In this document: in pieces, positions 2,697 through 21,548 of the stretch
How positions within the stretch are numbered: position 1 is the first letter of the stretch
How the letters are laid out: each line of letters starts with the position of its first letter
NCBI RefSeq assembly: GCF_013391105.1
Contig: NZ_CP058335.1
Span: 496,001-560,000 of the forward strand
DNA length: 64,000 nucleotides
From: Natronomonas salina
Lineage (GTDB): Archaea; Halobacteriota; Halobacteria; Halobacteriales; Haloarculaceae
Direction of reading: 5' to 3'
Notes under the pieces: generated by a model
What the model was told of the DNA's origin: nothing
What the model saw: the letters and a program-made list of their open reading frames with translations, nothing else
Database searches by the model: none
Program-made: the position numbers and the translations under genes

Positions 2697-3779
2697 CTAC
2701 AGCTCCATCTCCCCGTCGATGATCATCTGTGCCCGTTCGGCCAGTGCGGGGACGCCCTCCCGCATCTTCGGGTACATCGGGTCGTCGGAGTTGCCCTCGA
2801 GGTACCGGCGGAAGAACATCTCGCCGAGGCCGGCGAGCTTGTACACCGCGAGCACCCAGTAGAACCGCCAGTTGTCGAACTCGTAGCCGGTCTTCTCCTC
2901 GTAGCGCTCGACGAGGTCCCGGCGCGACGGGTACCCCTCGCGGGTCATGAACTCCGAGGCCAGCGACTGCGTCGGCGGCTCCGGGTCCTTCTCCTCGCTC
3001 CAGTAGGAGAGCATCCACCCGAGGTCCGTGAAGGGGTCGCCGAGCGTCGACATCTCCCAGTCGAAGATAGCCGCGATCTCGGGGTCGTCCGACGGCGCGA
3101 ACATGACGTTGTCGAGCTTGTAGTCGCCGTGGACGAGCGTGTTCGGGTACTCGTCGTCCTCCGGGACGTTGTCGTAGAGCCACTCCATGACGTCGTAGAG
3201 CGTCTCGACCTCCCGCTCCTCGGCGGTGACCTCGAAGGCCCACGTCAGCTGTTCGGACCAGCGGCGGACCTGCCGCTGGGTGAACTCCGGCGGGTAGCCG
3301 AAGTCGCCCTCCTCCAGCCCGACGGCCTCGTAGTCGACCTCGTGGATCTCGACGAGGCGGTCGACCATCTCGTGGCCGATCCGTTCGCGGGACTCGGGGT
3401 CGGCGAAGCGGTCGGGTTCCTCGTCCCGGAGCACGTCGCCCTCCTGGCGCTCCATCGCGTAGAAGTCGCTGCCGATGACGTCGTGGTCGTCGCAGGCCAG
3501 CACCGTCGTGGGAACCCTGACGTTCGTCTCCTGGAGGGCGTCGATGACCCGGTACTCCCTGAGGACGTCGTGGGCGTTCTCGGCGATGTCCCCCGGGGGC
3601 GGCCGGCGGACGACGAGTTCGCGGTCCCCCCAGGTGACGAAGAGGGTCTCGTTGGAGTGGCCCTCCTGGTGGTGCCGGACGTCGTACTCCTCGACGGTGC
3701 CGAGTTCGGCCTCCAGATACGAGCGGAGCGAGTCCTCGTCGACGATGCGCTCGAAGTACTCGGAATCCGCGTCGGTCAT
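2697..3779 (-). CDS. APH-like phosphotransferase (ACAD10/11-type kinase half)
   Basis: A kinase of the aminoglycoside-phosphotransferase/choline-kinase fold, 360 residues. The catalytic loop reads VHGDYKLDN (H217, D219, N224) and the metal-binding motif is FDWE (D240, E242). It is not expected to confer antibiotic resistance: proteins of this subgroup sit beside or are fused to acyl-CoA dehydrogenases. In mammalian ACAD10/11 and bacterial LvaA they phosphorylate the 4-hydroxyl of 4-hydroxyacyl-CoA. Here the gene is divergent from exactly such a dehydrogenase, with a 179-base shared promoter region. Fold call is strong; the substrate is inferred from the family and neighbour. Confidence 0.85.
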   Translation of the reverse strand: MTDADSEYFERIVDEDSLRSYLEAELGTVEEYDVRHHQEGHSNETLFVTWGDRELVVRRPPPGDIAENAHDVLREYRVIDALQETNVRVPTTVLACDDHDVIGSDFYAMERQEGDVLRDEEPDRFADPESRERIGHEMVDRLVEIHEVDYEAVGLEEGDFGYPPEFTQRQVRRWSEQLTWAFEVTAEEREVETLYDVMEWLYDNVPEDDEYPNTLVHGDYKLDNVMFAPSDDPEIAAIFDWEMSTLGDPFTDLGWMLSYWSEEKDPEPPTQSLASEFMTREGYPSRRDLVERYEEKTGYEFDNWRFYWVLAVYKLAGLGEMFFRRYLEGNSDDPMYPKMREGVPALAERAQMIIDGEMEL

Positions 3780-3797
3780 CCGTCCTCACCCGCGAGG

Positions 3798-3814
3798 CTT
3801 ACTAACATTGTAAG
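3798..3814 (-). promoter_or_regulatory. inverted repeat / promoter element upstream of the APH-like kinase
   Basis: The sequence CTTACTAACATTGTAAG has perfect 5-base arms (CTTAC/GTAAG) around a 7-base centre. Read on the minus strand it contains TTACAATGTT, about 24 bases from the kinase ATG, so it could act as the TATA region, an operator, or both. The same decamer occurs upstream of the divergent gene. Confidence 0.4.
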
Positions 3815-3925
3815 ACGAAGTGTGCGACGCTGACCCAAATAACTGCCGCCACCCCTCGCATGTCGGACATGTATCGGAGCGAGGGAGCCCGGTCGTGTGT
3901 ACCAGTCGACAGTTCCGCTCCCGGT

Positions 3926-3945
3926 CCTTTTACAATGTTGTGTCC
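3926..3945 (+). promoter_or_regulatory. shared TTACAATGTT promoter/operator element upstream of the acyl-CoA dehydrogenase
   Basis: The decamer TTACAATGTT occupies 3930-3939, ending 19 bases before the ATG at 3959. It is identical to the one facing the kinase at 3804-3813 (minus strand). Its distance fits an archaeal TATA region of a nearly leaderless transcript. Identity of ten bases in both halves of one short divergent spacer suggests a common regulator, but a shared TATA-like composition could also explain it. Confidence 0.4.
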
Positions 3946-3958
3946 AGATAGGTACGCC

Positions 3959-5173
3959 ATGGAGTACCACGACTCCCCCGAGGCGAAGGAGCTCGCAGAC
4001 CGCGCCCGCGAGTTCGTCGACGAGGTCGTCATCCCGACGGAACGCGAACACCTCGGCCAGGGCCCGGTCGGAGAGGACGTCATCGAGGACCTCCGAGAGG
4101 AGGCCCGCGACCGCGATATCTACTGCCCCCAGATCGACGAGGAGCACGGCGGCATGGGGATGGACCTCAGCGACGTCCTCCCGCTGTTCGAGGAGGCCGG
4201 CCGCTCGCTGCTCGGCGCCTCGGCGATGCGCGTCGACGCGCCCGACGAGGGGAACATGCACACCCTCGAGCTCGTCGGCAGCGAGGAACAGAAGGAGGAG
4301 TGGCTCGAGCCGCTCGTCGCCGGCGAGATCCGCTCGGCGTTCGGCATGACCGAGCCCCGCGACGGCGCCGGCTCCGACCCGAAGATGCTGAAGACGACCG
4401 CCGAGAAGGACGGCGACGAGTGGGTCATCGACGGCCACAAGTGGTGGACGACGCAGGGCAGCCACGCCGACGTCATCCTCCTGATGGCGGTCACCGACCC
4501 CGACGCCCACCCCTACCAGGGCGCCTCCATCATCCTCGTCCCGACCGACGCCGACGGCGTCGAGATGGTCCGCGACATCCCCCACCTCGGCCCCGACATG
4601 GACGGCCACGGCCACGCCGAGTTCCGGTTCGACGACGTCCGCGTCCCCGAGGAGAACCTGCTGGGCTCCGAGAACGCCGGCTTCGCGATTGCCCAGCAGC
4701 GCCTCGGCCCCGCTCGCCTGACCCACTGCATGCGCTTCTCCGGGATGGCCCGTCGGGCGCTCACCATCGCGAAGGCGTACATGTCCGAGCGGGAGTCCTT
4801 CGGCACCTCGCTGTCGGACAAGCAGTCGCTCCGCTACGACATCGCCGACAAGGAGACCGAACTCCACGCCGCCCGGACGATGGTCAGACACGCCGCCGAG
4901 GAGATCGCCCGCGGCGAGCAGGCCCGCGTCCCGGTCTCGATGTCGAAGGTCTTCACCGCGAACGTCTGCCAGGAGGCCATCGACCTCGCTATCCAGTGTA
5001 CCGGCGGCTCCGGCATCTCCCGGGACCTCCCGCTGGCGGACTTCTACGAGGGCGTCCGCGCCTTCCGCATCGTCGACGGCGCCGACGAGGTCCACCAGCG
5101 CGTCATCGCCCGCGACGCCTTCGAGGGCGCCGAGGAGCACACCGACGAACTGGAGAACCTGCCGACCTTCTGA
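3959..5173 (+). CDS. acyl-CoA dehydrogenase family protein, ACAD10/11 (LvaC-like) type
   Basis: A flavoprotein of 404 residues covering the full acyl-CoA dehydrogenase fold. The N-terminal helical domain is followed by the FAD/substrate segment (FGMTEPRDGAGSD) and the C-terminal helical domain. Near residues 370-379 it reads RIVDGADEVH where ordinary family members read YEGT/EIQ. The DGxDEVH form is typical of the ACAD10/11 subgroup, which removes a 4-phosphate and does not simply desaturate. The start at 3959 was chosen over an in-frame ATG at 3860 because homology begins at MEYHDS and the promoter-like element at 3926-3945 lies inside the longer version. It is divergent from the APH-like kinase. 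Confidence 0.88.
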   Translation: MEYHDSPEAKELADRAREFVDEVVIPTEREHLGQGPVGEDVIEDLREEARDRDIYCPQIDEEHGGMGMDLSDVLPLFEEAGRSLLGASAMRVDAPDEGNMHTLELVGSEEQKEEWLEPLVAGEIRSAFGMTEPRDGAGSDPKMLKTTAEKDGDEWVIDGHKWWTTQGSHADVILLMAVTDPDAHPYQGASIILVPTDADGVEMVRDIPHLGPDMDGHGHAEFRFDDVRVPEENLLGSENAGFAIAQQRLGPARLTHCMRFSGMARRALTIAKAYMSERESFGTSLSDKQSLRYDIADKETELHAARTMVRHAAEEIARGEQARVPVSMSKVFTANVCQEAIDLAIQCTGGSGISRDLPLADFYEGVRAFRIVDGADEVHQRVIARDAFEGAEEHTDELENLPTF

Positions 5174-6309: not shown

Positions 6310-7083
6310 TCACGTCGCCGTCCAGCCGCCGTCGACAGTGAAGACGCTGCCCGTACAGTAGGCGGAGGCGTCGCTGGCGAGGAAGACGGCGATCCCCTTC
6401 AGGTCGTCCGGGTCCCCCAGGCGCCCGAGGATCGTCTCGTCGGCCATCTGGTCGTGCATCTCGTCGAGCCCCGAGTCCTTCCGGAAGGCGCCGCCGCCGA
6501 TGCCGGTGTGCGTCCAGCCCGGCGCGATGGCGTTGACGCGGATGTCGTCGTCGCCGAGGTCCGCGGCAGCCTGCTTGACGAGCTGTCGGACGCCGCCCTT
6601 CGAGGCGACGTAGGCGGCGACGCCCGGCCAGTCGGAGGCCACCTCGCTGAGCACCGACGCCGTCGCGACGATGCTGCCGCCGTCGTCCATCGCCGCCGCG
6701 GCCTCGCGGATGGTGTAGAAGACGCCGTCGAGGTTGACGTCCATCACGTCGTCCCACTCCTCGACCGGGTACCGGTCGATCGGCAGGCTCAGGCGCCCGA
6801 TGCCGGCGTTCGCGAAGACGACGTCCAGCCCGCCGAGTTCGTCCGTCGCCGTCTCGACCATCTCCTGGACCTGCTCGTGCTCGGAGACGTCGACCTCCAG
6901 GGGGAGCGTCTCCGCGTCGAGTTCGTCGGCGACCTCCCGGACACCCTCGTGGTCGACGTCCGCCAGCGCGAGGTCGGCGCCGGCGTCGGCACAGGCCTCC
7001 GCGTAGGCCTTGCCGATGCCCGAGGCCGCGCCAGTGATCAGTACCACGTCGTCGTCGAGCCTGAAGCGGTCGAGTACGCTCAT
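6310..7083 (-). CDS. SDR family oxidoreductase
   Basis: A classical short-chain dehydrogenase/reductase of 257 residues. It has the cofactor motif TGAASGIG (17-24), NAG (92-94), a catalytic Ser near 143, and YVASK with Tyr158 and Lys162. An acidic residue ends beta-2 (ADVD, about 41-44), which suggests NAD over NADP. It probably oxidises or reduces a secondary alcohol or keto group on an organic acid, sugar acid or acyl-CoA, but the substrate is not set by sequence. The ATG at 7083 is the start where homology begins; the open frame upstream is non-coding and overlaps the divergent small gene region. Confidence 0.87.
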   Translation of the reverse strand: MSVLDRFRLDDDVVLITGAASGIGKAYAEACADAGADLALADVDHEGVREVADELDAETLPLEVDVSEHEQVQEMVETATDELGGLDVVFANAGIGRLSLPIDRYPVEEWDDVMDVNLDGVFYTIREAAAAMDDGGSIVATASVLSEVASDWPGVAAYVASKGGVRQLVKQAAADLGDDDIRVNAIAPGWTHTGIGGGAFRKDSGLDEMHDQMADETILGRLGDPDDLKGIAVFLASDASAYCTGSVFTVDGGWTAT

Positions 7084-7163
7084 GGCCACCACCTCGCGGA
7101 GAAGGGGTTTGGTGGTTTTCCCTGCGATGGGAGGGCGCAGGGGGCGCCACCGGTACCGCGCCG

Positions 7164-7391
7164 TTACCTGTCCTCCTCGACTGACGCGTGCCGTGGCTGG
7201 AGCCGACGGTACCAGGGGAGCAGCGGCGGAGCGAGGAGGAGCGCAGCCACGACGAACACGAGGATCGACAGTAGCGGCATCGACGTGACGTACCAGACGG
7301 CGATCCCGGGCAGCAGGGCCACGAAGACGTGGGCGAAGAACAGCGCCGAGACCGGGAGGAACCCGTGGGCGGGATGGCCGACGACAGTCAT
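7164..7391 (-). CDS. small two-helix membrane protein, unknown function
   Basis: A 75-residue protein with two hydrophobic segments (about residues 11-32 and 35-55) and a basic/acidic C-terminal tail (WYRRLQPRHASVEEDR). The start at 7391 is preferred because a TATA-like TTTGTATC lies near -30 on the minus strand. No recognised domain. It is about 80 bases upstream of the SDR gene in the same direction and may be co-transcribed. Confidence 0.55.
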   Translation of the reverse strand: MTVVGHPAHGFLPVSALFFAHVFVALLPGIAVWYVTSMPLLSILVFVVAALLLAPPLLPWYRRLQPRHASVEEDR

Positions 7392-7587
7392 CGTATATTC
7401 TACCGACGTGGACCTGATACAAACACGTTCGCATCGATTCTCCATCTGACTGTCGCGGAACCGGAATCACGGACCAAAGCATCCGCGCGAGCAGAGCGAG
7501 CGCGGTAATCGACGGCGAGCGATGCGTGGCGCGAACGAAGTGAGCGCCACGGGAATGCGAACGGCGAGCGGAGCGAGCCGTGAGCAG

Positions 7588-7677
7588 CGAGCCGCCGTAG
7601 CGTTCGGAAATCGCCCTTGGCGATTTCCGCAGCCCGTCAGAAGTGCTTCGCACTTCTGAGGACGCCCGACGACTAAC
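7588..7677 (-). repeat. 90-nt structured intergenic repeat, copy A
   Basis: Read on the minus strand, these 90 bases match 17430-17519 (plus strand) at 88 positions. The repeat carries two perfect hairpins: CAGAAGTGC-GAA-GCACTTCTG and GGAAATCGCC-AAG-GGCGATTTCC. A third hairpin at 7677-7705 (stem CGCTGGCCC/GGGCCAGCG) precedes it, and a U-tract hairpin at 7733-7785 opens the element. No coding frame is conserved in a convincing way. The flanking bases 7450-7587 contain more GC-rich dyads (for example GTGGCGC/GCGCCAC) but no gene. Confidence 0.8.
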
Positions 7678-7732
7678 GCTGGCCCGAACGGAGTGAGGGC
7701 CAGCGGCTGGAGGAGGGCGCGCCTATTTACAC

Positions 7733-7785
7733 CCACGTTTTTGCCGCGAGGCGCGGCGGAGCCGCGCCGAGCGTGCAAAAAGTGG
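7733..7785 (-). terminator. terminator-like hairpin 3' of the SDR gene
   Basis: Directly after the stop at 7791 (minus strand) comes CCACTTTTTGC, then a perfect GGCGCGGC/GCCGCGCC stem (7750-7757 with 7761-7768, loop 58-60), then GCAAAAACGTGG. The outer TTTTTGC/GCAAAAA arms also pair. The same arrangement follows the ThDP enzyme gene at 17335-17371, where it likewise opens the repeat element. Confidence 0.55.
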
Positions 7786-7790
7786 AGGTT

Positions 7791-8570
7791 CTAGAAACTG
7801 AAGAGGTCGATGCCGCCGGTGACGCCGATGACCTGGCCGGTGATGTAGTTGGACTGCTCGGAGGCGAGGTAGGCGACGAGATTGGAGACGTCCTCCTCCT
7901 TGCCGAGCTTGCGCATCGGGGTGGCCTTCGCGATCCGGGCGAAGTGCTCGTCGACCTGCTCGAGCTGGTCGATGGGGAGGTCGGCGAGCTGGCCGACGAC
8001 GATGCTGGGAGCGATGACGTTCGAGGTGACGCCGTGCTGGGCGCCCTCGAGGGCGAGCGTCTTGCCGAAGCCGATGAGCGCGGCCTTCGTCGCGGAGTAC
8101 GAGAGCTGGCCGAAGCCGCCCTGCCAGCCGGCCATCGAGGACATGTTGATGATGCGGCCCCACTCCCGCTCCTTCATGTGGGGATAGACCTCCTGGGTGA
8201 TGTTGTAGGCGCCGGTGAGGTTGACGGCGATGTCGCGGTCCCAGATGTCGTCGTCGAAGTCCTCGACCTTGTCGCGGGCGTCGACCATCCCGGCGTTGTT
8301 CACGAGGATGTCGATGCCGCCGGTCTCCTCCTCGAGGGCGGCGACGGTGTCGGAGACGTCGGCGCGGTCGGTGAGGTCGCACTCGACGGCGTGGGCGGTC
8401 GCGTCGTAGTCCTCCTCGAGTTCGTCGACGACGTTCTCCGCCTTGTCGAGGGCGACGTCGAGGACGACGACGTCGGCGCCCTCCTGGGCGAGTACGCGGC
8501 AGTCTTCGCTCCCGATACGTCCGGCACCGCCGGTGACGAGGGCGGTCTTGTCGTCAAGTCCGAAGTCCAT
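7791..8570 (-). CDS. SDR oxidoreductase, acetoacetyl-CoA/3-oxoacyl reductase-like
   Basis: A short-chain dehydrogenase of 259 residues: TGGAGRIG (13-20), D38 at the end of beta-2, NNAGM (91-95), Ser144/145, and YSATK with Tyr158 and Lys162. The general look (INMSSMAGWQGGFGQLSYSATKAALIGFGK) resembles PhaB/FabG-type 3-oxoacyl reductases, which would fit the acyl-CoA genes around it, but D38 suggests NAD(H). The start at 8570 has a TATA-like CTTATAG at about -27. Its 3' end is followed at once by a terminator hairpin and repeat copy A. Confidence 0.85.
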   Translation of the reverse strand: MDFGLDDKTALVTGGAGRIGSEDCRVLAQEGADVVVLDVALDKAENVVDELEEDYDATAHAVECDLTDRADVSDTVAALEEETGGIDILVNNAGMVDARDKVEDFDDDIWDRDIAVNLTGAYNITQEVYPHMKEREWGRIINMSSMAGWQGGFGQLSYSATKAALIGFGKTLALEGAQHGVTSNVIAPSIVVGQLADLPIDQLEQVDEHFARIAKATPMRKLGKEEDVSNLVAYLASEQSNYITGQVIGVTGGIDLFSF

Positions 8571-8663: not shown

Positions 8664-9362
8664 TTATCGAACGACGCCGACGACGTCGAGCAGCTCGCGC
8701 AGGTCGTCGATCTCGTAGTCGGCCTCGGGTCCCCGGCCGTCCTCGCCGTAGCCGACGGTCCCGATGCCGAGGTCGGCGGCGCCGGCGACGTCGTGGGAGT
8801 GGCGGTCCCCGACCATCAGCGCGCGCTCGGGATCGACGTCGAGGGCGTCCAGGGCGTCGCGGAACATCCGCGCGTCGGGCTTGGTGTGGCCGACGTCCTC
8901 GGAGGTGGTGACGTGGTCGAAGCGCTCGCGGACGCCGAAGGTCTCGAGCATGTTCTCGGCCTCGCGGGTGTCGATGTCGGAGACGATGGCCAGTTTGAGC
9001 CCCGCCTCGTCGAGCGCCCGGATGGTCTCGACGGCGCCGTCCTCGGCGCGGAGCGTGGCGTCTGTCGCCTCGGCGAAGGTAGCCTCCCAGTCGTCAGGCG
9101 GATCGCCGTCGAACAGCGCGGTGGTGGCCTTCTCGTAGCCCTCGCGTGCGGTCCGGTACTCGGTTCCCTCGCGGCCCTTGAAGTGCTCGCCGAGGGTCGA
9201 CTTCCAGGTGTCGAGCGCCGCCTCGGGGTCGAGGTCGTGTTCGTCGGCGAGTTCGGCGACGAAGGTCGCGTACCCCTCCCGGACGGACTTCAGTTCGACG
9301 ATGACGCCGCCGATGTCCCAGAGGACGGCGTCGTAGGCGCGGTCGGGGTCGCCCTCGCTCAT
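8664..9362 (-). CDS. HAD-superfamily hydrolase (phosphatase-like)
   Basis: A 232-residue HAD subfamily IA protein with motif I WDIGGV (nucleophile Asp16), a helical cap, motif II VSDID, motif III Lys in TKPDARMF and motif IV GDRHSHDVAGA. The second acidic residue of motif I is Gly (DxG), as in several HAD-IA subgroups, so activity as a general phosphatase is not certain. Its ATG overlaps the stop of the upstream MBL gene (ATGA), indicating translational coupling. ACAD10 of mammals carries a HAD domain, so its closeness to the kinase/dehydrogenase pair may be meaningful, though 3.5-5 kb separate them. Confidence 0.82.
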   Translation of the reverse strand: MSEGDPDRAYDAVLWDIGGVIVELKSVREGYATFVAELADEHDLDPEAALDTWKSTLGEHFKGREGTEYRTAREGYEKATTALFDGDPPDDWEATFAEATDATLRAEDGAVETIRALDEAGLKLAIVSDIDTREAENMLETFGVRERFDHVTTSEDVGHTKPDARMFRDALDALDVDPERALMVGDRHSHDVAGAADLGIGTVGYGEDGRGPEADYEIDDLRELLDVVGVVR

Positions 9363-10450: not shown

Positions 10451-10501
10451 ATGACAGCGACACGCACGAGCGCGCACACGGCGCGGGAGGACCGATGCTA
10501 G
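10451..10501 (+). CDS. possible 16-residue leader peptide upstream of the SDR gene
   Basis: The ATG at 10451 is correctly placed for a leaderless start from the TATA-like box at 10416-10423. It encodes MTATRTSAHTAREDRC and stops with TAG at 10499-10501, overlapping the first codons of the SDR gene (ATG 10495) in another frame. GGGAGG at 10485-10490 serves as a ribosome-binding site for the SDR gene. This would couple SDR translation to the short frame. Nothing but position supports it being translated. Confidence 0.35.
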   Translation: MTATRTSAHTAREDRC

Positions 10502-11271
10502 ACCAGTTCAGCGTCGACGGGCAGACGGCCATCATCACCGGCTCCAGCCAGGGCATCGGCGAGGTGACGGCCCGGCGGTTCGCCGACGACGGCGCGAACG
10601 TCGTGGTCACCTCGCGGTCCCCGGAGGAGATCGAGGAGGTCGCCGAGGACATCAACGCCGGCGACGCGCCCGGCGAGGCCATCGCCGTCGAGTGCGACGT
10701 CCGCGAGCGCGACTCGGTGGAGGCGCTCGTCGAGGCGACCGTCGAGGAGTTCGGCGGCGTCGACGCGATGATCAACAACGCCGGCGCCTCCTTCATGGCC
10801 GGCTTCGACGACATCTCCGAGAACGGCTGGAAGACCATCGTGGACATCAACCTCCACGGCACGTTCCACTGCTCGCAGGTCGCCGGCCAGCAGATGCAGG
10901 AGCAGGGCGACGGCGGCAGCATCGTCAACTTCGCCTCCGTCGCGGGGACGATGGGCTCCAGGTACATGAGCCACTACGGCGCCGCGAAGGCGGCGGTCGT
11001 GAACCTCACGACGTCGCTGTCAGCCGAGTACGCCGAGGACGACATCAAGGTCAACTGCATCGCGCCGGGGCTGGTCGGGACCGCCGGCGTCGCCTCCCAG
11101 ATGGGCATCGACCCCGCGAACGTCGAGCGAAGCGACATCGCCAAGGAGATGGGCCTGCCCGAGGAGATCGCCGACATCGTCCAGTTCCTCGCGAGCGACG
11201 CCTCCTCGTACGTCGTCGGCGAGACCATCGTCGCCCAGGGCGTCCCCCCGCTGGAGGACTCGAACCTGTGA
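10495..11271 (+). CDS. SDR family oxidoreductase (glucose-1-dehydrogenase/FabG-like)
   Basis: A 258-residue SDR with TGSSQGIG (15-22), CDVR acidic loop, NNAGA (94-98), Ser148, and YGAAK with Tyr161 and Lys165. Unlike most genes here it has a good Shine-Dalgarno sequence (GGGAGG at 10485-10490, five bases before the ATG), so it is probably not leaderless. It is followed after 7 bases by the F420-dependent oxidoreductase and likely forms an operon with it. SDR plus F420 enzyme suggests sequential redox steps on one compound; which compound is unknown. Confidence 0.86.
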   Translation: MLDQFSVDGQTAIITGSSQGIGEVTARRFADDGANVVVTSRSPEEIEEVAEDINAGDAPGEAIAVECDVRERDSVEALVEATVEEFGGVDAMINNAGASFMAGFDDISENGWKTIVDINLHGTFHCSQVAGQQMQEQGDGGSIVNFASVAGTMGSRYMSHYGAAKAAVVNLTTSLSAEYAEDDIKVNCIAPGLVGTAGVASQMGIDPANVERSDIAKEMGLPEEIADIVQFLASDASSYVVGETIVAQGVPPLEDSNL

Positions 11272-11278
11272 TCCGACC

Positions 11279-12277
11279 ATGACCGAACGAGACGTCTTCC
11301 TCCCCGTCGCGGCCCAGCCGAGCGTCGACGCGCTCGTCGAGCAGGCGCGACTGGGCGAGGAACTCGGCTACGACACCGCGTGGCTCCCGGAGACCTGGGG
11401 CCGCGACGCGGTGACGACGCTGACCAGCATCGCCCACGGGACCGAGGACATCGACATCGGGACCTCCATCATGCCGGTGTACTCGCGGTCGCCGGCGCTC
11501 ATCGGCCAGACCGCCGCGACGCTCCAGGAGGTCGCCGACGGCCGCTTCCGGCTCGGGCTCGGCCCCTCGGGCCCCATCGTCATCGAGAACTGGCACGGCG
11601 TGGACTTCGGGAACCCGCTCCGCCGGACCCGCGAGACCGTCGACGTCGTCAAGCAGGTCCTCTCGGGGGAGCCCGTCGACTACGACGGCGAGTACTTCGA
11701 CCTCGAGGGGTTTCGGCTGCGCTGCGACCCGCCGGACCCGGTCCCGTCCGTCGAGACCGCCGGGATGGGCCCGAAGGCCGTCGAACTCGCCGGCCGGTTC
11801 GCCGACGGCTGGCACGCGCTGATGCTCACCCGCGACGGGCTCCGGGACCGCCTGGAGGACTTCGAGCGCGGCTCCGAGATGGGCGACCGCGACCGCTCCG
11901 AGCAGCGCGTCACCCTCTCGCTGACCTGCTGTGCCCTGGAGGACGCCGAGGAGGCCAAGCAGCTCGTCAAGCAGCACTCGGCCTTCTACGTCGGTGGGAT
12001 GGGCACCTACTACCGGGACAACCTCGCCCGGCAGGGCCACGAGGAGGTCGCCCACGAGATCCACGACAAGTGGCAGGGCGGTGACAAGCAGGCCGCGATC
12101 GCGGCGCTGCCCGACGACCTGCTCGAGCAACTGGCCGTCTGGGGGACCCCGGAGGAGGCCCGCGAGCACTTCGAGCGGTTCACCGACGTCGACGGCATCG
12201 AGGCCGTCTCCGTGTCGTTCCCGCGCGGTGCCGACCTCGACCAGATCGAGTCGACGGTCCGGGCGCTGGCGCCCTGA
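11279..12277 (+). CDS. LLM-class F420-dependent oxidoreductase
   Basis: A luciferase-like TIM-barrel oxidoreductase of 332 residues, resembling the haloarchaeal NP1902A-type coenzyme-F420 family. The features are a YDTAWLPETWGRD substrate/cofactor segment, DIGTSIMPVYSRSPA, the phosphate-binding FRLGLGPSGP and a C-terminal half with TPEEAREHFERF. It would transfer a hydride between F420 and an organic substrate. It sits 7 bases behind the SDR gene. An intrinsic-type hairpin with a T-rich tail follows at 12296-12330, marking the end of this two-gene unit. Confidence 0.82.
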   Translation: MTERDVFLPVAAQPSVDALVEQARLGEELGYDTAWLPETWGRDAVTTLTSIAHGTEDIDIGTSIMPVYSRSPALIGQTAATLQEVADGRFRLGLGPSGPIVIENWHGVDFGNPLRRTRETVDVVKQVLSGEPVDYDGEYFDLEGFRLRCDPPDPVPSVETAGMGPKAVELAGRFADGWHALMLTRDGLRDRLEDFERGSEMGDRDRSEQRVTLSLTCCALEDAEEAKQLVKQHSAFYVGGMGTYYRDNLARQGHEEVAHEIHDKWQGGDKQAAIAALPDDLLEQLAVWGTPEEAREHFERFTDVDGIEAVSVSFPRGADLDQIESTVRALAP

Positions 12278-12330: not shown

Positions 12331-12429
12331 TTCCACCCGGTCTGTCGGGAGAAATACAAACTCGGATGAACGGTACTGAAGTTGATGATTGGCGCGGCAT
12401 TCATTATCCCTGGGCATCTCTTGGCGGAC

Positions 12430-13509
12430 ATGGCAGGTAACCAGCCACTGCGCGGGACGACGCGTCGACGCTTCCTGACGGCGACCGGCACCGGAGTCGG
12501 GGCGCTCGCCCTCGCCGGCTGCTCCGGCGGTGGCAACGGTGACGACGGCGGTAGCGACGAATACGAGCGCGTCAGCGTCGGCTACGGCGAACAGGGCAGC
12601 GCGATGAACGAGGGTCGCCTGGACGTCGGCGTCGGGACCTACCTCAACTTCCAGATCGCGCCCGGCTGGTTGCAGGACATGATGGCCCAGGTCGACCTCC
12701 GCATCCTCGGCGTCCCGGACGACGTCCTCGAGGACTGGGAGGGCGACGACCGGCTACTCGTCCAGTCGTTCCCCGGCGAGGAACTCGAGAACGCGGCGTA
12801 CATCCCGGACGAGGTCCACTGTCCGACCTTCGCGTACAACTTCGTCACGCGGAACGACCTCGACTACGACACGGTCTACGAGTTCATGACGACGCTGTAC
12901 GAGAACCGCGACCAGCTGGGCGAGTACAGCGCCGTCCTCGAGCGCCTCGAGAACGAGGAGTTCTGGCTCGAGAACATGTACGATGGGGTCCCGTTCCACC
13001 CGGCGGCTGCCGACTTCTACCAGGAGAACGGCCTCTGGAGCGACGAATTCGAGCGCGCCGACGAACCCGACGAGCAGGTCGGCGGCTCCCAGGACGGCGA
13101 GGCGCAGTTCCGGATGCGGACGTCCGGGTCGACGACCTCCGCCTACGCGGCGAACCAGGGGATGGCCGCCGTGGTCAACGAGAACACCGACGAGGTGTTC
13201 GTCGAGGCCCAGACCAGCCCCGGCACCGAGGCCAACATGGGCGCGCTGAACAACGAGGAGGCCGAGAGCGTCTACATCCAGAACTGGTCGGCCCAGGACG
13301 TCCGTGACGGCAACGAGCCGTACGACAACCTGAACTTCGAGATGACCCAGGTCATGCACTTCTACGACCTCCCGTGGTTCTTCTGTACGGCCAACGAGGG
13401 CTGGGAGACGCTCGCGGACATCGAGTCCGGGAGTTCCATCTCGCCCACGCCGAGCGGTTCGGGGACGGCACCGGCGCTCGAACACGCACTGGGATACGTC
13501 TTCGACTGA
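12430..13509 (+). CDS. TAXI-family TRAP transporter substrate-binding lipoprotein
   Basis: The extracellular solute receptor of a tripartite ATP-independent periplasmic-type transporter, 359 residues. A twin-arginine signal (TTRRRFLTATG, residues 10-20) leads into a lipobox LAGC with Cys31, followed by an acidic Gly/Ser linker. The mature part has the TAXI-family look (VSVGYGEQGSAMNEG early, and a late DLPWFFCTANEGWETL). The ATG at 12430 is chosen because the Tat signal starts there; the ATG at 12382 would add unrelated residues. The fused permease gene begins 6 bases after its stop. The ligand is likely an organic acid, judging from the family and the downstream ThDP enzyme. Confidence 0.86.
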   Translation: MAGNQPLRGTTRRRFLTATGTGVGALALAGCSGGGNGDDGGSDEYERVSVGYGEQGSAMNEGRLDVGVGTYLNFQIAPGWLQDMMAQVDLRILGVPDDVLEDWEGDDRLLVQSFPGEELENAAYIPDEVHCPTFAYNFVTRNDLDYDTVYEFMTTLYENRDQLGEYSAVLERLENEEFWLENMYDGVPFHPAAADFYQENGLWSDEFERADEPDEQVGGSQDGEAQFRMRTSGSTTSAYAANQGMAAVVNENTDEVFVEAQTSPGTEANMGALNNEEAESVYIQNWSAQDVRDGNEPYDNLNFEMTQVMHFYDLPWFFCTANEGWETLADIESGSSISPTPSGSGTAPALEHALGYVFD

Positions 13510-13515
13510 CACTCG

Positions 13516-15555
13516 ATGTCCGTAACCACCCGGTTCGCGGACGACGCGGGTCCGAAGTCGGTGCTCGACGCCATCGTGTCGCTGCTGGGCGTCTCGCTGA
13601 CGCTGTTCACCGTCGGGTACGCGACCACGCTGGTGTTCAACCTCCCGACGTTCGACCAGGTGGAGGCGTACATGAACATCTTCCTGGGGATCGGTCTGGC
13701 GCTCTTCTACCTCCACTACGCGAGCGAGCGGTTCGACGCCGACAACTGGCCGCCCCACACCCCGGCAGGCTCCAGGTCGGCGCTCGACCGCGTCCGGGAC
13801 GGGTACGCGCGGATCGACCCGTTCGTGGCCGTCGCCCTGGCGCTGCTGGCCCTCGCCGCGACGGGCTACGTCCACTACCACTTCGAGCGGCTCATGGAGG
13901 ACGTCTTCCTGCAGGGCCACACCCAGGTCGACTACTACGTCGGCGTCGTCCTCATCGTGCTGGCCATCGACTCGACGCGGCGGGCCTTCGGGAACGTCAT
14001 CGCGGCGTTCGCGGTGCTGTCTGTCCTGTACTCCCACTCGCTCGTCGGCCCCGAGATGCCGGGCGCGCTCCGGCACACCGGCTTCACGTGGCAGCAGATC
14101 TCCCGGACCGGCGCCATCGAGATCACCGGCGTCTACCACGAGACGCTGATGCGGATCGGCGCGACGTGGGTCGCCATCTTCATCATGTTCGCCGGCATCG
14201 CGAAGGCGTTCGGGCTGATGGACTTCGTCCTCGACGTCGGGAGCGAACTCGGGACCAGCCTCCGGACGGGCGTCGTCCAGATCGCCGTCGTGGCGAGCAT
14301 GATCATGGGCTCGATCACCGGGAGCGCGGCGGCGAACACGGCCACGACGGGGAGCTTCACCATCCCGATGCTGAAGGAGCAGGGCGTCCAGGACGACTTC
14401 GCGGCCGCCATCGAGGCGGTCGCCTCGGCCGGCGGACAGATGCTCCCGCCCGTGATGGGCGTCGCCGCCTTCATCATGGCCGACCTGCTCGACGTCCCGT
14501 ACGTCGACATCATCCAGGCCGGCACCATCCCCGCGATGCTGTTCTACCTCAGCGTCGGGGTCGGCGTCCACTACACCGTGCTCAAGCACGGCTGGATCTC
14601 CGAGGACCTCGACTCCTTCGAGTGGCGGATGCTCGCGGAGGGGGCGCACTTCCTCATCCCGCTCTGCGTCCTGCTGTACACGCTCATCTGGCTGCGGTAC
14701 TCGCCGATGACGGCGGGGATGTACTCCATCTTCACCATCGTCGGCGTCGTCGCCATCAGGAACGCCTACTCCCGGGGGATCTCCGCGGAGTCGGCGAAGA
14801 CGACCGCCGCCCAGACCGTCGACGGACTCCGGCAGGGCGGCGTCGACATGGCGCCGCTCATCGGCGTCCTCGCCGCGATGGGCCTCATCGTCCAGTTGCT
14901 GGAGGGGACCGGCCTCACCCAGCGGGTCGGGACGCTCATCATCAGCCTCGGCGGCGGCTCGCTGATCGTCGTCCTGCTGCTGGCGATGGTCGCGTCGGTG
15001 CTCTTCGGACTGGGGATGCCGACGCCCGCGGCCTACATCCTGGTGGTCATCCTGGTCGCCCCGGGCGTCATCGAGATGGGCGTTCCGGACATCGCGACCC
15101 ACATGTTCGTCTTCTACTTCGCGATGCTGTCGGCGATCACGCCGCCGGTCGCCATCTCGGTGGCCGTCGGCTCCCGCATCGCCGACACCAGCTTCACGCG
15201 CTCCTGCGTGCAGGCGCTCCGGCTCGGGGCCCCCGGGTTCGTCATCCCCTACGCCTTCGTGGCGAACGACAGCCTCATCTACTGGTCGGTCCCGGACACG
15301 CTCATCCAGTTCCCGCTGGTCCTGTCTGGGACGATCGGACTAATCGTGGCCATGGTCGGCTACGACGGCGCCCACGACCTGGCGTACCACTGGCGGGCCG
15401 GCTACGTCGTGCTGGCCTTCGGCGCGATGTTCGGCAGCGTCGTCCACTTCGGCCTGCAGGTGGCCGCCGCAGTCGTCCTCGGGGCGGCGCTGATCTACGG
15501 GAGCTTCGTCGCCGAGACGGAGATCGGCGGGGCGTCGACGCAGGTCGGCGACTAG
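13516..15555 (+). CDS. TRAP transporter permease, fused small and large subunits (DctQM-type)
   Basis: A 679-residue integral membrane protein. About four N-terminal helices correspond to the small (Q) subunit, followed by a long block of about 12-14 helices of the large (M) subunit. Conserved large-subunit elements are GSITGSAAANTATTGSFTIP, GGQMLPPVMG and FGLGMPTPAAYIL. It drives sodium-coupled uptake together with the TAXI receptor just upstream. The fused architecture is typical of TAXI-type TRAP systems, so no separate dctQ gene is expected. It likely belongs to one operon with the receptor gene, and the ThDP enzyme follows after a 77-base gap that has its own promoter. Confidence 0.9.
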   Translation: MSVTTRFADDAGPKSVLDAIVSLLGVSLTLFTVGYATTLVFNLPTFDQVEAYMNIFLGIGLALFYLHYASERFDADNWPPHTPAGSRSALDRVRDGYARIDPFVAVALALLALAATGYVHYHFERLMEDVFLQGHTQVDYYVGVVLIVLAIDSTRRAFGNVIAAFAVLSVLYSHSLVGPEMPGALRHTGFTWQQISRTGAIEITGVYHETLMRIGATWVAIFIMFAGIAKAFGLMDFVLDVGSELGTSLRTGVVQIAVVASMIMGSITGSAAANTATTGSFTIPMLKEQGVQDDFAAAIEAVASAGGQMLPPVMGVAAFIMADLLDVPYVDIIQAGTIPAMLFYLSVGVGVHYTVLKHGWISEDLDSFEWRMLAEGAHFLIPLCVLLYTLIWLRYSPMTAGMYSIFTIVGVVAIRNAYSRGISAESAKTTAAQTVDGLRQGGVDMAPLIGVLAAMGLIVQLLEGTGLTQRVGTLIISLGGGSLIVVLLLAMVASVLFGLGMPTPAAYILVVILVAPGVIEMGVPDIATHMFVFYFAMLSAITPPVAISVAVGSRIADTSFTRSCVQALRLGAPGFVIPYAFVANDSLIYWSVPDTLIQFPLVLSGTIGLIVAMVGYDGAHDLAYHWRAGYVVLAFGAMFGSVVHFGLQVAAAVVLGAALIYGSFVAETEIGGASTQVGD

Positions 15556-15632
15556 CGTCCCGTCGCCCACTTCCCTGAGGGCCGGTCGCCGAAGGGATGA
15601 ACTATTTATCGGTGGCAACGACAGGAAGAGCC

Positions 15633-17327
15633 ATGGCAAATTCCTACACGGGAGCGGATCTCTTCGTCGACGCACTCGAGCAGTACGGCGTCCAGCACGT
15701 CTTCGGCAATCCCGGGACGACGGAGCTGCCCATCATGAACGCGCTCTCCCACAGCGACCTGGAGTACGTCCTCGGCCTCCAGGAGGACGTCGCCACGGGG
15801 ATGGCCGCCGGCTACGCCTCCACCCGCCGCTACCACGCCGACGACGACCCCGACGTCAACCCCGTCGGCGTCGTCAACCTCCACGTCACGCCCGGCCTCG
15901 CCCACGGGCTCGGCAACGTCTTCGGCGCGATGTACGGCGGCGCCCCGGTCGTCGTCACCGCCGGCAACCACGAACTGGACTTCCGGCACGAGGAGCCCAT
16001 CCTGACCGGCGATCTCGAGCGACTCGTCGACCAGTTCTGCAAGATGTCCGCGGAAGTCACCCACGTCGACTCGCTGCCGATGCTGCTACGCCGGGCGTTC
16101 CGTGTCGCGCTGACGCCGCCGACCGGTCCCGTCTTCCTCGCGCTTCCGGCGGACGTGATGCAGACCGAGACCGACCGCACGCCCGAACGCCTCGGCCCGA
16201 TCCCGGACGCCGGCCGCGGCGACCCCCAGCAGATCGAGGCCGCCGCCGACTACTTCGTCGAGGCCGACCAGCCCGTGCTGGTGCTGGGCGACCACGTCGC
16301 CCGCGCCGGCAAGCAGGCCGTCGACGCCGCCATCGAACTGGCCGAGGCTGCCGGCGCGCGCGTCCACGGCGAGATCCTCGCCAGCGAGGTGAACTACCCC
16401 ACGGAACACGACCACTGGATCTCCTTCATGGCCGCCGACGAGGGGCTGGCCTCGATGATGATGGACACCGACACGCTGGCGCTGGTCGGCACCTCCACGA
16501 ACACGACGCTGCTCCGCCACGAGAACCCGCTCGTCGACGAGGACACGACGACCATCCAGATCTCCAGCGACCCCTGGGAGGTCGGGAAGAACCACCCCGC
16601 CGACGCCGCCGTCGTCGGCGACCCCGGCCACGTGATGGGCGAGATCGCCGAGCGCGTCGACGACCGCCTGGACGACGAGGAGCAGGAAGCCCGTGCCGAC
16701 TACGTCCAGACAATGAAGCAGTCGCTGGCGGGGACGATGCAGGACATCGGCGAGGACGAGAAACCCGAGGGCGACGAGCGCTCCTCGAAGGCCGAACTCG
16801 TCGACAACATGATCGAGGTCGACGACGAGGTCTACATCGTCGACGAGGGGGTCACCTCCAAGTTCGCGATGCTCACCCGCTTCCCGTTCGACAAGGAGCA
16901 GTACCTCTCGAACAAGGGCGGCGGTCTCGGCTACGGCCTCCCGGCGGCCGTCGGCGCCGCCTTCGCCGAGTCCATCCAGGACGACCCCCGGACCGTCGTC
17001 GGCTACGTCGGCGACGGCTCGTACCTCTACTACCCCCACTCCATCTACTCCGCCGCCCGGCACGACCTCGACCTGACGGTCGTCGTCTCCGACAACCGCA
17101 ACTACCGGATCCTCAAGAACAACACGCTGAAGATGCTCGGCGGGGAGGAAGCGGACTACGACTTCGTGGGGATGGACTTCGACCCCCACGTCGACATCCC
17201 GAAGAACGCCGAGAGCCACGGCGCCCGCGGCCACCTCGTCGAGACGCCCGAGGCGTTCCCCGACGTCTACGAGGAGGCCCTGGAGTCGAGCGGCACCGAC
17301 GTCATCGACGTGCTCGTCCACGACTGA
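15633..17327 (+). CDS. ThDP-dependent enzyme, benzoylformate-decarboxylase/acetolactate-synthase-like
   Basis: A thiamine-diphosphate enzyme of 564 residues with all three domains. The N-terminal motif FGNPGTTELP holds the cofactor-activating Glu, and NLHVTPGLAHG holds a His matching the active-site His of benzoylformate decarboxylase. The Mg/ThDP motif begins GDGSYLYYP and ends SDNRNY. It should decarboxylate or carboligate a 2-keto acid. The ATG at 15633 is preferred over 15597 because ACTATTTATC at 15602-15611 is a TATA box at the right distance. It lies directly behind the TRAP transporter genes, so the imported compound may be its substrate or precursor. Its 3' end carries a terminator hairpin and repeat copy B. 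Confidence 0.87.
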   Translation: MANSYTGADLFVDALEQYGVQHVFGNPGTTELPIMNALSHSDLEYVLGLQEDVATGMAAGYASTRRYHADDDPDVNPVGVVNLHVTPGLAHGLGNVFGAMYGGAPVVVTAGNHELDFRHEEPILTGDLERLVDQFCKMSAEVTHVDSLPMLLRRAFRVALTPPTGPVFLALPADVMQTETDRTPERLGPIPDAGRGDPQQIEAAADYFVEADQPVLVLGDHVARAGKQAVDAAIELAEAAGARVHGEILASEVNYPTEHDHWISFMAADEGLASMMMDTDTLALVGTSTNTTLLRHENPLVDEDTTTIQISSDPWEVGKNHPADAAVVGDPGHVMGEIAERVDDRLDDEEQEARADYVQTMKQSLAGTMQDIGEDEKPEGDERSSKAELVDNMIEVDDEVYIVDEGVTSKFAMLTRFPFDKEQYLSNKGGGLGYGLPAAVGAAFAESIQDDPRTVVGYVGDGSYLYYPHSIYSAARHDLDLTVVVSDNRNYRILKNNTLKMLGGEEADYDFVGMDFDPHVDIPKNAESHGARGHLVETPEAFPDVYEEALESSGTDVIDVLVHD

Positions 17328-17334
17328 GCACCCA

Positions 17335-17371
17335 CTTTTTGCACGGGCGGCCTTCGGCCGCCCGGCAAAAG
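17335..17371 (+). terminator. terminator-like hairpin 3' of the ThDP enzyme
   Basis: CTTTTTGC at 17335-17342, then a perfect GGGCGGCC-TTC-GGCCGCCC stem (17345-17363), then GGCAAAAG. The outer TTTTGC/GCAAAA arms also pair. It has the same form and position as the hairpin after the SDR gene at 7733-7785. Confidence 0.55.
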
Positions 17372-17400
17372 CTTGGGGAAAATATGCGCGCCATCCTCCG

Positions 17401-17430
17401 TGCCGCGGCGCTCACTTTGTTCGCGCCGCG
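17401..17430 (+). ncRNA. hairpin of the structured element, with paired changes between copies
   Basis: CGCGGCGC (17404-17411) pairs with GCGCCGCG (17423-17430) around the loop TCACTTTGTTC. In copy A (minus strand, 7677-7705) the stem is CGCTGGCCC/GGGCCAGCG while the loop is TCACTCCGTTC. Both stem sides changed and pairing was kept, which argues for selection on RNA or DNA structure. Typing as ncRNA is tentative. Confidence 0.4.
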
Positions 17431-17519
17431 TTAGTCGTCGGGCGTCCTCAGAAGTGCGAAGCACTTCTGATGGGCTGCGGAAATCGCCAAGGGCGATTTC
17501 CGAACGCTACGGCGACTCG
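17430..17519 (+). repeat. 90-nt structured intergenic repeat, copy B
   Basis: Matches copy A (7588-7677, minus strand) at 88 of 90 bases. Hairpins are CAGAAGTGC (17449-17457) with GCACTTCTG (17461-17469), and GGAAATCGCC (17479-17488) with GGCGATTTCC (17492-17501). Both are perfect in both copies. The remaining spacer to 17797 holds further GC-rich dyads and one TTCTTAAGTACGATAA segment near 17582-17600 that may be a promoter, but no gene was recognised. Confidence 0.82.
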
Positions 17520-17797
17520 GCCTGCGGCCTCGTCGCCGCGGACCGCGCTCCCTCCGGTCGCGCGGTTTCTGGACCTGACCCGGCTTCTTAAGTACGATAA
17601 CCCGACCAGACAGCCCGTGCTCTGAGCAGCCACCGACGGGCCGCCGAGGCGGTAGCGAGGTGGCGGAGTCACCTCGATGCGAGCGGTGAGCGGAAGCGAG
17701 CCGCGAGCGCGACCCACGGCTCGTCGAATTAGCGGGTCGCCTGTACGCAGTTCCGGAAACGGCAGGGATATCACGGCAACGCGGCAACACCGATGAC

Positions 17798-18700
17798 GTG
17801 TCCAGGGCCTACGCCGCCACGATGTTCGCCGCCCTCGCCGTGATGTGGGGCCTCTCCTTCCCGGCCATCTCCGTCGGCCTCGAGTACCTCCCGCCGCTGC
17901 TGTTCGCGGCGTTCCGCTACGACGTCGCCGCCGTGCTCCTCCTGGGCTACGCCGTCGCGACGACCGACACCTGGCGGCCGGTCGGGTGGAACAACGTCTC
18001 GGCCATCCTCGGGGGCGGCGCGTTCCTCATCGCCGGCAACGGGCTGCTGTTCATCGGCCAGCAGACCGTCCCCAGCGGCGTCGCCGCGATCCTGCAGGCG
18101 CTCGTCCCGATCCTCACCGCGCTGTGGGCGCTCGCACTGCTCGGCGAGCGTCTCTCGGCGGTCGGCGCGGTCGGCGCCGGCCTCGGCTTCCTCGGCGTCG
18201 GGCTCATCGTCCAGCCCGACCCGAACAACCTGCTGGCCGGCGACACCGTCGGCCGACTCATCATCGTCGGCCAGGTGGTCCTGGTCTCCCTCGGCGGCGT
18301 CATCGTCCAGCGGGCCGGCCCCACCATGGAACGGGTCGCGCTGACCGGCTGGTCGATGCTCGTCGGCGGACTCCTCCTGCACGCCTTCAGCCTCGGCGCC
18401 GGCGAGCTGCCCGGAGCGAGCGCGCTGTCGTCGACCGCCGTCGGCGCCGTCGTCTACCTGGGCGTCTTCTCGACGGCGCTGGCGTTCCTCATCTACTTCA
18501 CGTTCCTCGAGGAGCGCGGCGCCTTCGAGACGAGCCTCGTGGCCTACCTCGTCCCGGTCGTGGCGACCGTCGCCGGGGTCTTCCTGCTCGACGAGACCAT
18601 CGGCCTCCTCTCCGTCGCCGGGTTCGTCGTGGTCTTCGTCGGCTTCGCGTTGCTGAAACGCCACGCGCTGGTCGACCTCGTCGGCGCCGGCGTCAGTTGA
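17798..18700 (+). CDS. EamA/DMT-superfamily transporter
   Basis: A ten-helix drug/metabolite transporter of 300 residues made of two EamA repeats (about residues 8-140 and 150-290). Typical features are MWGLSFPAISVGL near the start and the closing helix VAGFVVVFVGFALLKR. It probably exports a metabolite such as an amino acid or keto acid. The start is GTG at 17798; no in-frame ATG lies just upstream. It is convergent with the CoA-transferase gene, overlapping its 3' end by 8 bases. Confidence 0.85.
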   Translation: MSRAYAATMFAALAVMWGLSFPAISVGLEYLPPLLFAAFRYDVAAVLLLGYAVATTDTWRPVGWNNVSAILGGGAFLIAGNGLLFIGQQTVPSGVAAILQALVPILTALWALALLGERLSAVGAVGAGLGFLGVGLIVQPDPNNLLAGDTVGRLIIVGQVVLVSLGGVIVQRAGPTMERVALTGWSMLVGGLLLHAFSLGAGELPGASALSSTAVGAVVYLGVFSTALAFLIYFTFLEERGAFETSLVAYLVPVVATVAGVFLLDETIGLLSVAGFVVVFVGFALLKRHALVDLVGAGVS

Positions 18701-21237: not shown

Positions 21238-21244
21238 CGGAGCC

Positions 21245-21508: not shown

Positions 21509-21548
21509 CGACGCCGGCCTTCTTCCGGCTGGCGACCGAAGATTCGGT

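Follow-up and report, generated by a model that had tools for sequence, protein, structure and literature searches.

A divergent kinase and acyl-CoA dehydrogenase gene pair of Natronomonas salina as a predicted split ACAD10/ACAD11-like module of haloarchaea

A kinase gene and an acyl-CoA dehydrogenase (ACAD) gene lie head to head in the genome of Natronomonas salina, and their arrangement raises the question of whether the two products act in one pathway. A sequence-only reading of the surrounding 64,000 nucleotides (contig NZ_CP058335.1, positions 496,001 to 560,000; hereafter the window) had proposed a split ACAD10/ACAD11-like module, a proposal supported here by the residues retained in both proteins, the phylogeny of the dehydrogenase, and the conservation of the pair. 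We consider it probable (about 0.77) that the pair comprises a split haloarchaeal 4-hydroxyacyl-CoA kinase and a phosphate-eliminating dehydrogenase that feed beta-oxidation, with the reactions and the substrate deduced from sequence comparison. The features of the pair are as follows.

2697..3779, minus strand: predicted 4-hydroxyacyl-CoA kinase with an APH fold, of the ACAD10/11 kinase-domain type (Pfam APH at 152 bits, structural relatives, and kept residues)
3780..3958, no strand: shared divergent spacer with both promoters (from sequence; a divergent layout is common among haloarchaeal pairs)
3802..3814, minus strand: palindromic element TTACAATGTTAG / TAACATTGTAAG, 28-29 bp upstream of the kinase start
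3930..3941, plus strand: palindromic element TTACAATGTTGT, the same as the kinase-side one, ~30 bp upstream of the ACAD start
3959..5173, plus strand: atypical, ACAD10/11-LvaC-like acyl-CoA dehydrogenase, predicted to eliminate phosphate from 4-phosphoacyl-CoA (4hr3 and ACAD11 relatives, kept motifs, and tree)

The kinase gene encodes 360 amino acids, including LVHGDYKLDN and IFDWE, and both motifs of the APH3-type kinase core (HGDxxLDN and DWE) are present. The open reading frame and its Pfam match thus agree with the APH-fold kinase recognized earlier from VHGDYKLDN and FDWE. Among solved structures, the top matches were 9o56, 3dxp, and the kinase domain of ACAD11 (8v3u/8v3v; E 1e-45), and the next match reached only 48 bits. 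The catalytic Asp and Asn are retained in the alignment. The arginines of RE[YFH] and RQV, which align to the CoA-contacting R86 and R176 of ACAD11, are kept in haloarchaeal kinases from pair-bearing loci; the second of these arginines is missing from a distant 39% kinase homologue (L068). We predict that the window kinase is a 4-hydroxyacyl-CoA kinase.

The ACAD gene encodes 404 amino acids, including RIVDGADEVH. Its start was set at 3959 and not at 3860, because homologues align from residue 1 and a promoter element sits at 3930-3941. Its best relatives among solved structures are 4hr3 and ACAD11, and haloarchaeal ACADs are 36% identical to mouse ACAD11 and up to 42% identical to 4hr3. All ACAD11 residues tied to 4-phosphoacyl-CoA chemistry (R626, H634, R637, the catalytic D753, and the APDxGN proline) are retained in the window ACAD, and the functional residues of ACAD11-type enzymes named in PMC12440821 and PMC11342911 are retained in each aligned haloarchaeal copy. 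The segment RLGPARLTHCMR of the window ACAD covers the RLGP Arg and the HCMR motif (mouse ACAD11 R626, H634, and R637), both of which are found in all aligned haloarchaeal copies, and the cavity-opening proline motif reads APDEGN in the window and AP[DQH]EGN across the aligned copies. The catalytic Asp lies in DGxDEVH in all aligned haloarchaeal copies, whereas ordinary ACADs have EGT. The replacement of EGT..IQ by DGxDEVH, as claimed from the sequence alone, was correct by comparison with ACAD11 (8v3u, 2wbi) and 4hr3, which have LADGPDEVH, with FadE3 (GEGTNEIQ), and with ordinary haloarchaeal ACADs near homologous loci (IYEGTSEIQ). The window ACAD is a putative phosphate-eliminating enzyme acting on 4-phosphoacyl-CoA.

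The phylogenetic tree separated an ACAD10-like group, including the haloarchaeal ACADs, from ordinary ACADs with support of 100/100. A first AU test, with haloarchaeal and ordinary rows on one side, gave p 0.53 and does not speak against the ACAD10-like grouping. It only permits the haloarchaeal branch to be basal among ACAD10-like sequences, and the nested placement was therefore tested directly; nesting of the haloarchaeal rows with the nearest ordinary ACADs was rejected (p-AU 5e-87). The tree check suggested by the sequence-only reading thus keeps the window dehydrogenase out of the ordinary ACADs. In the best tree, the haloarchaeal ACADs make up a separate branch; neither joining this branch to the ACAD11/4hr3 crown (p-AU 0.41) nor giving it a basal position (p-AU 0.53) was rejected. 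Since the identities are just 36-42% and the branch is separate, the substrate could differ from that of ACAD11. The best explanation is that the haloarchaeal ACADs would work like ACAD10/11 and LvaA/LvaC yet form a separate subfamily.

Conservation of the pair was surveyed in 145 haloarchaeal genomes. The kinase and the ACAD were found in the identical 70 genomes, the other 75 had neither, and no genome was discordant (Fisher p 4e-43; the surveyed genomes are related, so that Fisher values overstate independence). Both genes were present even in the 24 of the 70 genomes in which they are unlinked. Linked pairs were divergent in 36 of 52 cases, 33 of these 36 being less than 500 bp apart, and genomes carried up to three copies. 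Neither this survey nor the tree, two of the three refuting checks named in the sequence-only reading, went against that reading. Conserved neighbours of the haloarchaeal loci include genes for 3-hydroxyacyl-CoA dehydrogenase, CoA ligase, MaoC, enoyl-CoA hydratase, thiolase, and SDR, with differences between genera; no CoA ligase lies close to the pair in the window cluster. DUF6285, which we take to be the LvaB family, is absent from the genome and 20 relatives and was not kept as a partner.

The kinase and ACAD start codons point apart across a spacer of 179 bp, in line with the earlier claim of divergent transcription from one short spacer. The pattern TWACAWTGTTRK occurs twice in the whole 3.75-Mb genome, once per divergent promoter and nowhere else, and it is enriched at the kinase and ACAD genes of haloarchaeal loci (48 observed vs 0.7 expected). 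The copy at 3930..3941 overlaps the TATA-box position expected for a leaderless transcript. From the observed element we infer that the kinase and ACAD genes are co-regulated, both responding to the one palindromic element of their common spacer. The pair appears to own its operator, and a regulator is therefore worth looking for. A conserved HTH gene was not adopted as the dedicated regulator because its correlation with the pair is only partial (55 of the 70 pair-bearing genomes, and also 17 of the 75 without the pair).

Further genes in the window are candidate pathway partners.

6310..7083, minus strand: third SDR, with the weakest link to the module (a single conserved neighbour match, L066)
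7791..8570, minus strand: second SDR, 3-oxoacyl-ACP reductase-like (an 83% orthologue lies 5' of the unlinked kinase of genome G099, L057)
8664..9362, minus strand: HAD-superfamily protein, predicted pathway partner (motif I DIGGV, first Asp only)
10495..11271, plus strand: SDR, candidate 4-oxoacyl-CoA/4-hydroxyacyl-CoA or 3-hydroxyacyl-CoA oxidoreductase (63% identity to the SDR of the Haloferax mediterranei cluster)
11279..12277, plus strand: F420-dependent LLM-class oxidoreductase, a possible accessory gene (TIGR04024, 575 bits, above its cut-off)

Among genomes with loci fetched, the SDR family of 10495..11271, a single-linkage cluster that also includes the SDR at 7791, lay close to a kinase or ACAD gene in 42, and the F420-dependent oxidoreductase was near the kinase in 13 genomes. 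An orthologue of the HAD gene was found in 51 of the 70 pair-bearing genomes vs none of the 75 others; in 40 of these 51 it lay at most 10 kb from the kinase or ACAD gene, and in 19 it sat immediately upstream of the kinase gene. The plasmid pHME132 of H. mediterranei carries the same divergent pair, WP_004060557 and WP_004060558, together with genes for HAD, SDR, CoA ligase, and 3-hydroxyacyl-CoA dehydrogenase.

In the proposed mechanism, the kinase would phosphorylate the 4-hydroxyl of a 4-hydroxyacyl-CoA, using ATP. The ACAD-like flavoenzyme, with Asp instead of Glu as the base and an Arg/His-lined pocket to hold the phosphate, would eliminate the phosphate to yield a 2-enoyl-CoA for beta-oxidation. 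An SDR could make the 4-hydroxyacyl-CoA from a 4-oxoacyl-CoA or oxidise the later 3-hydroxyacyl-CoA, and the HAD protein may have either the phosphorylated intermediate or the kinase as its target. Levulinate and similar gamma-hydroxy or 4-oxo acids would be the starting compounds. H. mediterranei grows on levulinic acid (PMC12455835), and one species that both carries the cluster and grows on levulinate makes use of levulinate or gamma-hydroxy acids by the pair more plausible; its levulinate growth gains a concrete gene candidate.

Both protein families are large, and their generic annotations ('acyl-CoA dehydrogenase family protein' and 'phosphotransferase family protein') would fit an ordinary short-chain acyl-CoA dehydrogenase lying by chance beside an APH protein that resembles antibiotic or sugar kinases and is unrelated to it. 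Such a coincidence is extremely improbable given the rejected nesting, the conserved residues in both proteins, the lack of discordant genomes, and the promoter element common to both genes. A more serious alternative is that the same phosphorylation and elimination act on a different hydroxyacyl-CoA, which could be branched, cyclic, longer-chain, or derived from isoprenoids, and not on levulinate-type short acids. The separate branch of the haloarchaeal ACADs, the multiple copies per genome, which suggest differing substrates, and the varying neighbours are in its favour; however, H. mediterranei has the pair and grows on levulinate, and the catalytic residues are identical to those of ACAD11, which leaves this alternative rather unlikely. 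H. mediterranei is also a PHBV producer, and levulinate has been discussed as a 3HV precursor, but the conserved neighbours are beta-oxidation genes and not polyhydroxyalkanoate synthase genes, making it very unlikely that the pathway supplies polyhydroxyalkanoate synthesis (3-hydroxyvalerate monomers) instead of energy catabolism.

The role of the HAD protein within the preferred kinase and phosphate-eliminating pathway is a separate matter. The sequence-only reading had placed a HAD phosphatase and SDRs near the pair; the HAD gene and three SDR genes are indeed present, and the phosphatase label is doubtful because motif I lacks the second Asp (DxGG). This motif reads DIGG, with Gly for the second Asp, in each orthologue covering it (the L035 call is truncated), and the nucleophile Asp, the motif III Lys, and the motif IV acids are retained. 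Against TIGR02247, presumably the ACAD10-type HAD model, the window protein scored 46.8 bits (cut-off 125.4) and three other orthologues 36.9, 30.5, and 28.9, which does not support direct orthology with the ACAD10 HAD domain. That domain shows the same loss and negligible phosphatase activity (PMC11342911). An active phosphatase recycling 4-phosphoacyl-CoA, as opposed to a regulator or an unrelated neighbour, would suit the strict co-occurrence with the pair, the position 5' of the kinase, and the remaining catalytic residues, but it is unlikely when the usual acid/base is Gly in all copies with motif I. We tentatively suggest, at somewhat less than even odds, that haloarchaea encode the three parts of ACAD10 in separate genes. 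The kinase and the phosphate-eliminating ACAD would share a palindromic operator of their own, and a DxG-type HAD would control or proofread phosphorylation by the kinase. The HAD domain of human ACAD10, which is unexplained, would then have a functional counterpart in archaea that stands as a separate protein, whether related by descent or not. As the HAD is a separate gene, its role can be tested by deletion in haloarchaea, which offer a simple system for an open question about ACAD10.

Several known systems resemble this pair. The lva operon of Pseudomonas putida (Rand et al. 2017), as far as it is described in PMC12440821 and PMC11342911, likewise has a two-gene kinase and ACAD (LvaA/LvaC), with an SDR and a CoA ligase in the wider pathway. 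It is a single operon, whereas the haloarchaeal genes are divergent, include a HAD, and lack DUF6285, and LvaC, at 62% identity (PMC11342911), is closer to the ACAD10 domain than the archaeal ACAD is. A P. putida locus in our set (L127) was not accepted as the lva operon, since BLAST found no kinase match within 6 kb. Clusters of Thermus (L228) and Pseudomonas (L215) with kinase, DUF6285, histidine phosphatase, and ACAD genes also place a kinase beside an ACAD10-like gene, with SDRs nearby and a phosphatase-family gene; their kinases are only ~24-32% identical to the haloarchaeal ones, and the phosphatase is not a HAD. The histidine phosphatase was not accepted as the usual bacterial counterpart of the HAD, being seen in Thermus and one Pseudomonas cluster but with only one weak match in 80 sampled loci. 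The closest solved structure to the window ACAD, the putative acyl-CoA dehydrogenase 4hr3 of Mycobacterium abscessus (42% identical), differs in having HAMR for HCMR, the other residues being the same, and belongs to a bacterial branch with ACAD11.

The reaction of ACAD10/11, the removal of the 4-hydroxyl from fatty acids that allows their breakdown in humans, was assigned in mammals only in 2024-2025, with bacterial pairs as the model (PMC12440821, PMC11342911). These two papers do not mention archaea, and our literature search found neither a paper joining ACAD11 with haloarchaea nor an assay of any haloarchaeal enzyme of this kind. New here are the palindromic element common to both promoters, the co-occurrence of the HAD with the pair, and the pHME132 cluster. 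Mammalian ACAD11 and ACAD10 (8v3u, 8v3v, 2wbi) share with the haloarchaeal proteins the kinase and ACAD catalytic residues, R626/H634/R637/D753, and the active-site proline, and, like the haloarchaea, do without LvaB; in addition, ACAD10 has a HAD domain that keeps only the first motif-I Asp. They differ in that the mammalian enzymes are one fused chain and the haloarchaeal genes are split and divergent, that the haloarchaeal ACAD, ~36% identical to mouse ACAD11, forms a separate branch, and that the haloarchaeal HAD scores far under the TIGR02247 cut-off. With these likenesses and differences, the haloarchaeal pair would place ACAD10/11 chemistry in the third domain of life.

The kinase and the acyl-CoA dehydrogenase (ACAD) lie on opposite strands at the following positions in the window, which is part (496,001-560,000) of a haloarchaeal genome assembled as a single contig of 3.75 Mb:

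2697-3779, minus strand: APH-fold kinase gene, 360 aa
3959 (ATG) to 5173, plus strand: atypical ACAD gene, 404 aa

The two start codons are divergent and 179 bp apart, consistent with the claim of the sequence-only reading that both genes are transcribed from one short spacer. A longer ACAD form starting at 3860, listed mechanically, is unlikely, and 3959 was favoured on two grounds: alignments with homologues begin at residue 1 of the shorter product, and 3930-3941 is occupied by a promoter element. The genome contains three copies of this ACAD, namely that of the window pair, one in a second divergent kinase/ACAD10-like pair (69,731-72,106), and an orphan (659,703-660,881). The kinase and ACAD of the second pair are 58% and 64% identical to those of the window, respectively. 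No APH kinase was found near the orphan, upstream of which a histidine-kinase-like gene takes its place. Two ordinary ACAD matches (145,014-146,153 and 237,962-239,080) each contain one in-frame stop (TAG and TGA, respectively) and are possibly pseudogenes or sequence errors.

The nearest solved relatives of the ACAD are 4hr3 of M. abscessus and ACAD11 (8v3u, 8v3v, 2wbi), which precede every ordinary ACAD. Residues R626, H634, R637, and D753 of mouse ACAD11 serve 4-phosphoacyl-CoA chemistry (NSMB 2025, PMC12440821), and to these CMLS 2024 (PMC11342911) adds a proline that opens the cavity and an arginine that binds the phosphate. The window ACAD carries the motifs RLGPARLTHCMR, APDEGN, and DGADEVH, and the Arg, HCMR block, proline, and catalytic Asp are conserved across every haloarchaeal copy aligned. 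FadE3, an ordinary ACAD, has neither the RLGP Arg nor the HCMR motif nor the proline, and shows EGT where the others have DGx; the alignment thus upholds the proposed contrast between DGxDEVH and the ordinary EGT motif. The predicted APH-fold kinase was likewise recovered, with HGDYKLDN, DWE, and both CoA-contacting arginines retained. Its top solved relatives are 9o56, 3dxp, and the ACAD11 kinase domain, after which the score falls from 156 to 48 bits. A remote kinase homologue (39%) at 6933-7985 of locus L068 has HGDFHLGN and lacks the second CoA-contacting arginine, and perhaps acts on a different substrate.

In a phylogenetic tree whose outgroup comprised FadE3 and 17 ordinary ACADs from this genome, one fully supported branch placed all ACAD10-like sequences (haloarchaeal, bacterial, ACAD11, and 4hr3) on one side, as did a smaller, careful tree. 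Forcing the haloarchaeal sequences beside their nearest ordinary ACADs cost 189 log units (p-AU 5e-87), which sets the dehydrogenase apart from ordinary ACADs, as the sequence-only reading had supposed. The haloarchaeal ACADs form one clade (100/100) adjoining a Chloroflexota sequence. Both a basal position among ACAD10-like enzymes (p-AU 0.53) and a position with the ACAD11/4hr3 crown (p-AU 0.41) are compatible with the data, and by sequence the clade is best described as a sister subfamily to the crown, outside the crown itself. All matches in a phylum sample of 393 genomes fell within the window's own order.

Across 145 genomes of the class Halobacteria (at least 90% complete), ACAD (>400 bits) and kinase (at least 320 bits, set at a gap in the score list between 320 and the next values, 247 and 160) were both present in the same 70 genomes and both missing from the same 75. 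The pair is thus conserved beyond this genome, with 36 divergent pairs, 33 of them less than 500 bp apart. At least one pair lay within 10 kb in 46 genomes; in the other 24 the genes were unlinked, so linkage alone is insufficient to explain the matched presence. A Fisher value for this co-occurrence is a guide only, since the 145 genomes are not independent. Several genera (e.g., those labelled g1, g11, g13, and g18) include genomes with and without the pair, implying more than one gain or loss.

Comparison of 38 divergent spacers revealed a shared promoter element. TTTTACAATGTT recurs 5' of the ACAD at the distance expected for a TATA-box, and a CTAACAWTGTTAG-like palindrome is close to the kinase start in about 10 of the 38. 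All three window matches to TWACAWTGTWRK (two overlapping; 0.11 expected) fall in the kinase/ACAD spacer, a figure that is partly circular because the pattern was derived from these same sites. The circularity is smaller for uniqueness within the whole genome and for repeated occurrence across other genera: TWACAWTGTTRK has two matches in the entire 3.75-Mb genome, one in each promoter of the pair, and a related pattern gave 48 matches (overlapping palindromic ones scored twice) against 0.7 expected over 1.39 Mb of haloarchaeal loci, nearly all adjoining a kinase or ACAD10-like gene. The palindromic element was not found in the spacer of the second pair. Kinases without an adjacent ACAD (loci L051, L054, L070, L071, L073, L075, L079-L082, L085, and L089) retain TTTTACAATGTT about 130-140 bp upstream, oriented away and at the place expected for an ACAD promoter; it looks like a remnant of that promoter, kept after the gene itself had gone from there.

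Recurrent neighbours of the kinase or ACAD included an SDR family (42 genomes), 3-hydroxyacyl-CoA dehydrogenase and an HTH protein (22 each), HAD (21 by neighbourhood count), and the F420-LLM protein TIGR04024 (13), together with ordinary ACAD, CoA ligase, MaoC, enoyl-CoA hydratase, and thiolase. A search of the same 145 genomes found orthologues of the window HAD (8664-9362, minus strand) in 51, all pair-bearing, and in none of the 75 without the pair. In 40 genomes the orthologue and the kinase or ACAD were no more than 10 kb apart, and in 19 it was the gene immediately 5' of the kinase, in the same orientation. Motif I reads DIGG in each orthologue covering it, with the second Asp missing. 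According to PMC11342911, the HAD of ACAD10 has likewise lost this Asp, has no appreciable phosphatase activity, and restrains the kinase; it was not evaluated further in the NSMB paper (PMC12440821). The archaeal HAD shares the missing second motif-I Asp but does not qualify as a member of the ACAD10-type HAD family by score, so the parallel would be functional at most. Beside the kinase/ACAD module, positions 12382-23261 of the window hold genes for a TAXI-TRAP transporter, TPP enzyme, CoA-transferase III, further ACAD, HpcH/HpaI aldolase, and SDR, which look like another CoA-thioester catabolic cluster.

The same divergent arrangement of kinase and ACAD is present on plasmid pHME132 of H. 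mediterranei, accompanied by genes for a HAD, an SDR, a fatty acid-CoA ligase, an ordinary ACAD, a 3-hydroxyacyl-CoA dehydrogenase, an ALDH, and an ADH; identities to the window are 66% (kinase), 68% (ACAD), 63% (SDR), and 48% (HAD). This species grows on levulinic acid at 0.097 per hour at 0.6 g/L (PMC12455835). Haladaptatus, Natrinema, Halococcus, and halophilic archaeon DL31 are among the other named carriers. In Thermus (L228, 10128-11128) and a Pseudomonas (L215, 403-1478), genes for DUF6285, the presumed family of LvaB, and a histidine phosphatase adjoin the kinase and ACAD10-like genes. DUF6285 was absent from the window's own genome and 20 relatives, which fits a kinase that resembles the ACAD10/11 type more closely than it does the bacterial kinases linked to DUF6285.

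By homology, the SDR would reduce 4-oxoacyl-CoA to 4-hydroxyacyl-CoA, the kinase would convert this to 4-phosphoacyl-CoA, and the ACAD would yield 2-enoyl-CoA for entry into beta-oxidation, with the HAD predicted to act on the kinase step. The best reading is that the module functions like ACAD10/11 and LvaA/LvaC (the kinase and ACAD of the Pseudomonas putida lva system), whereas by sequence the archaeal pair is a separate subfamily of the same kind.
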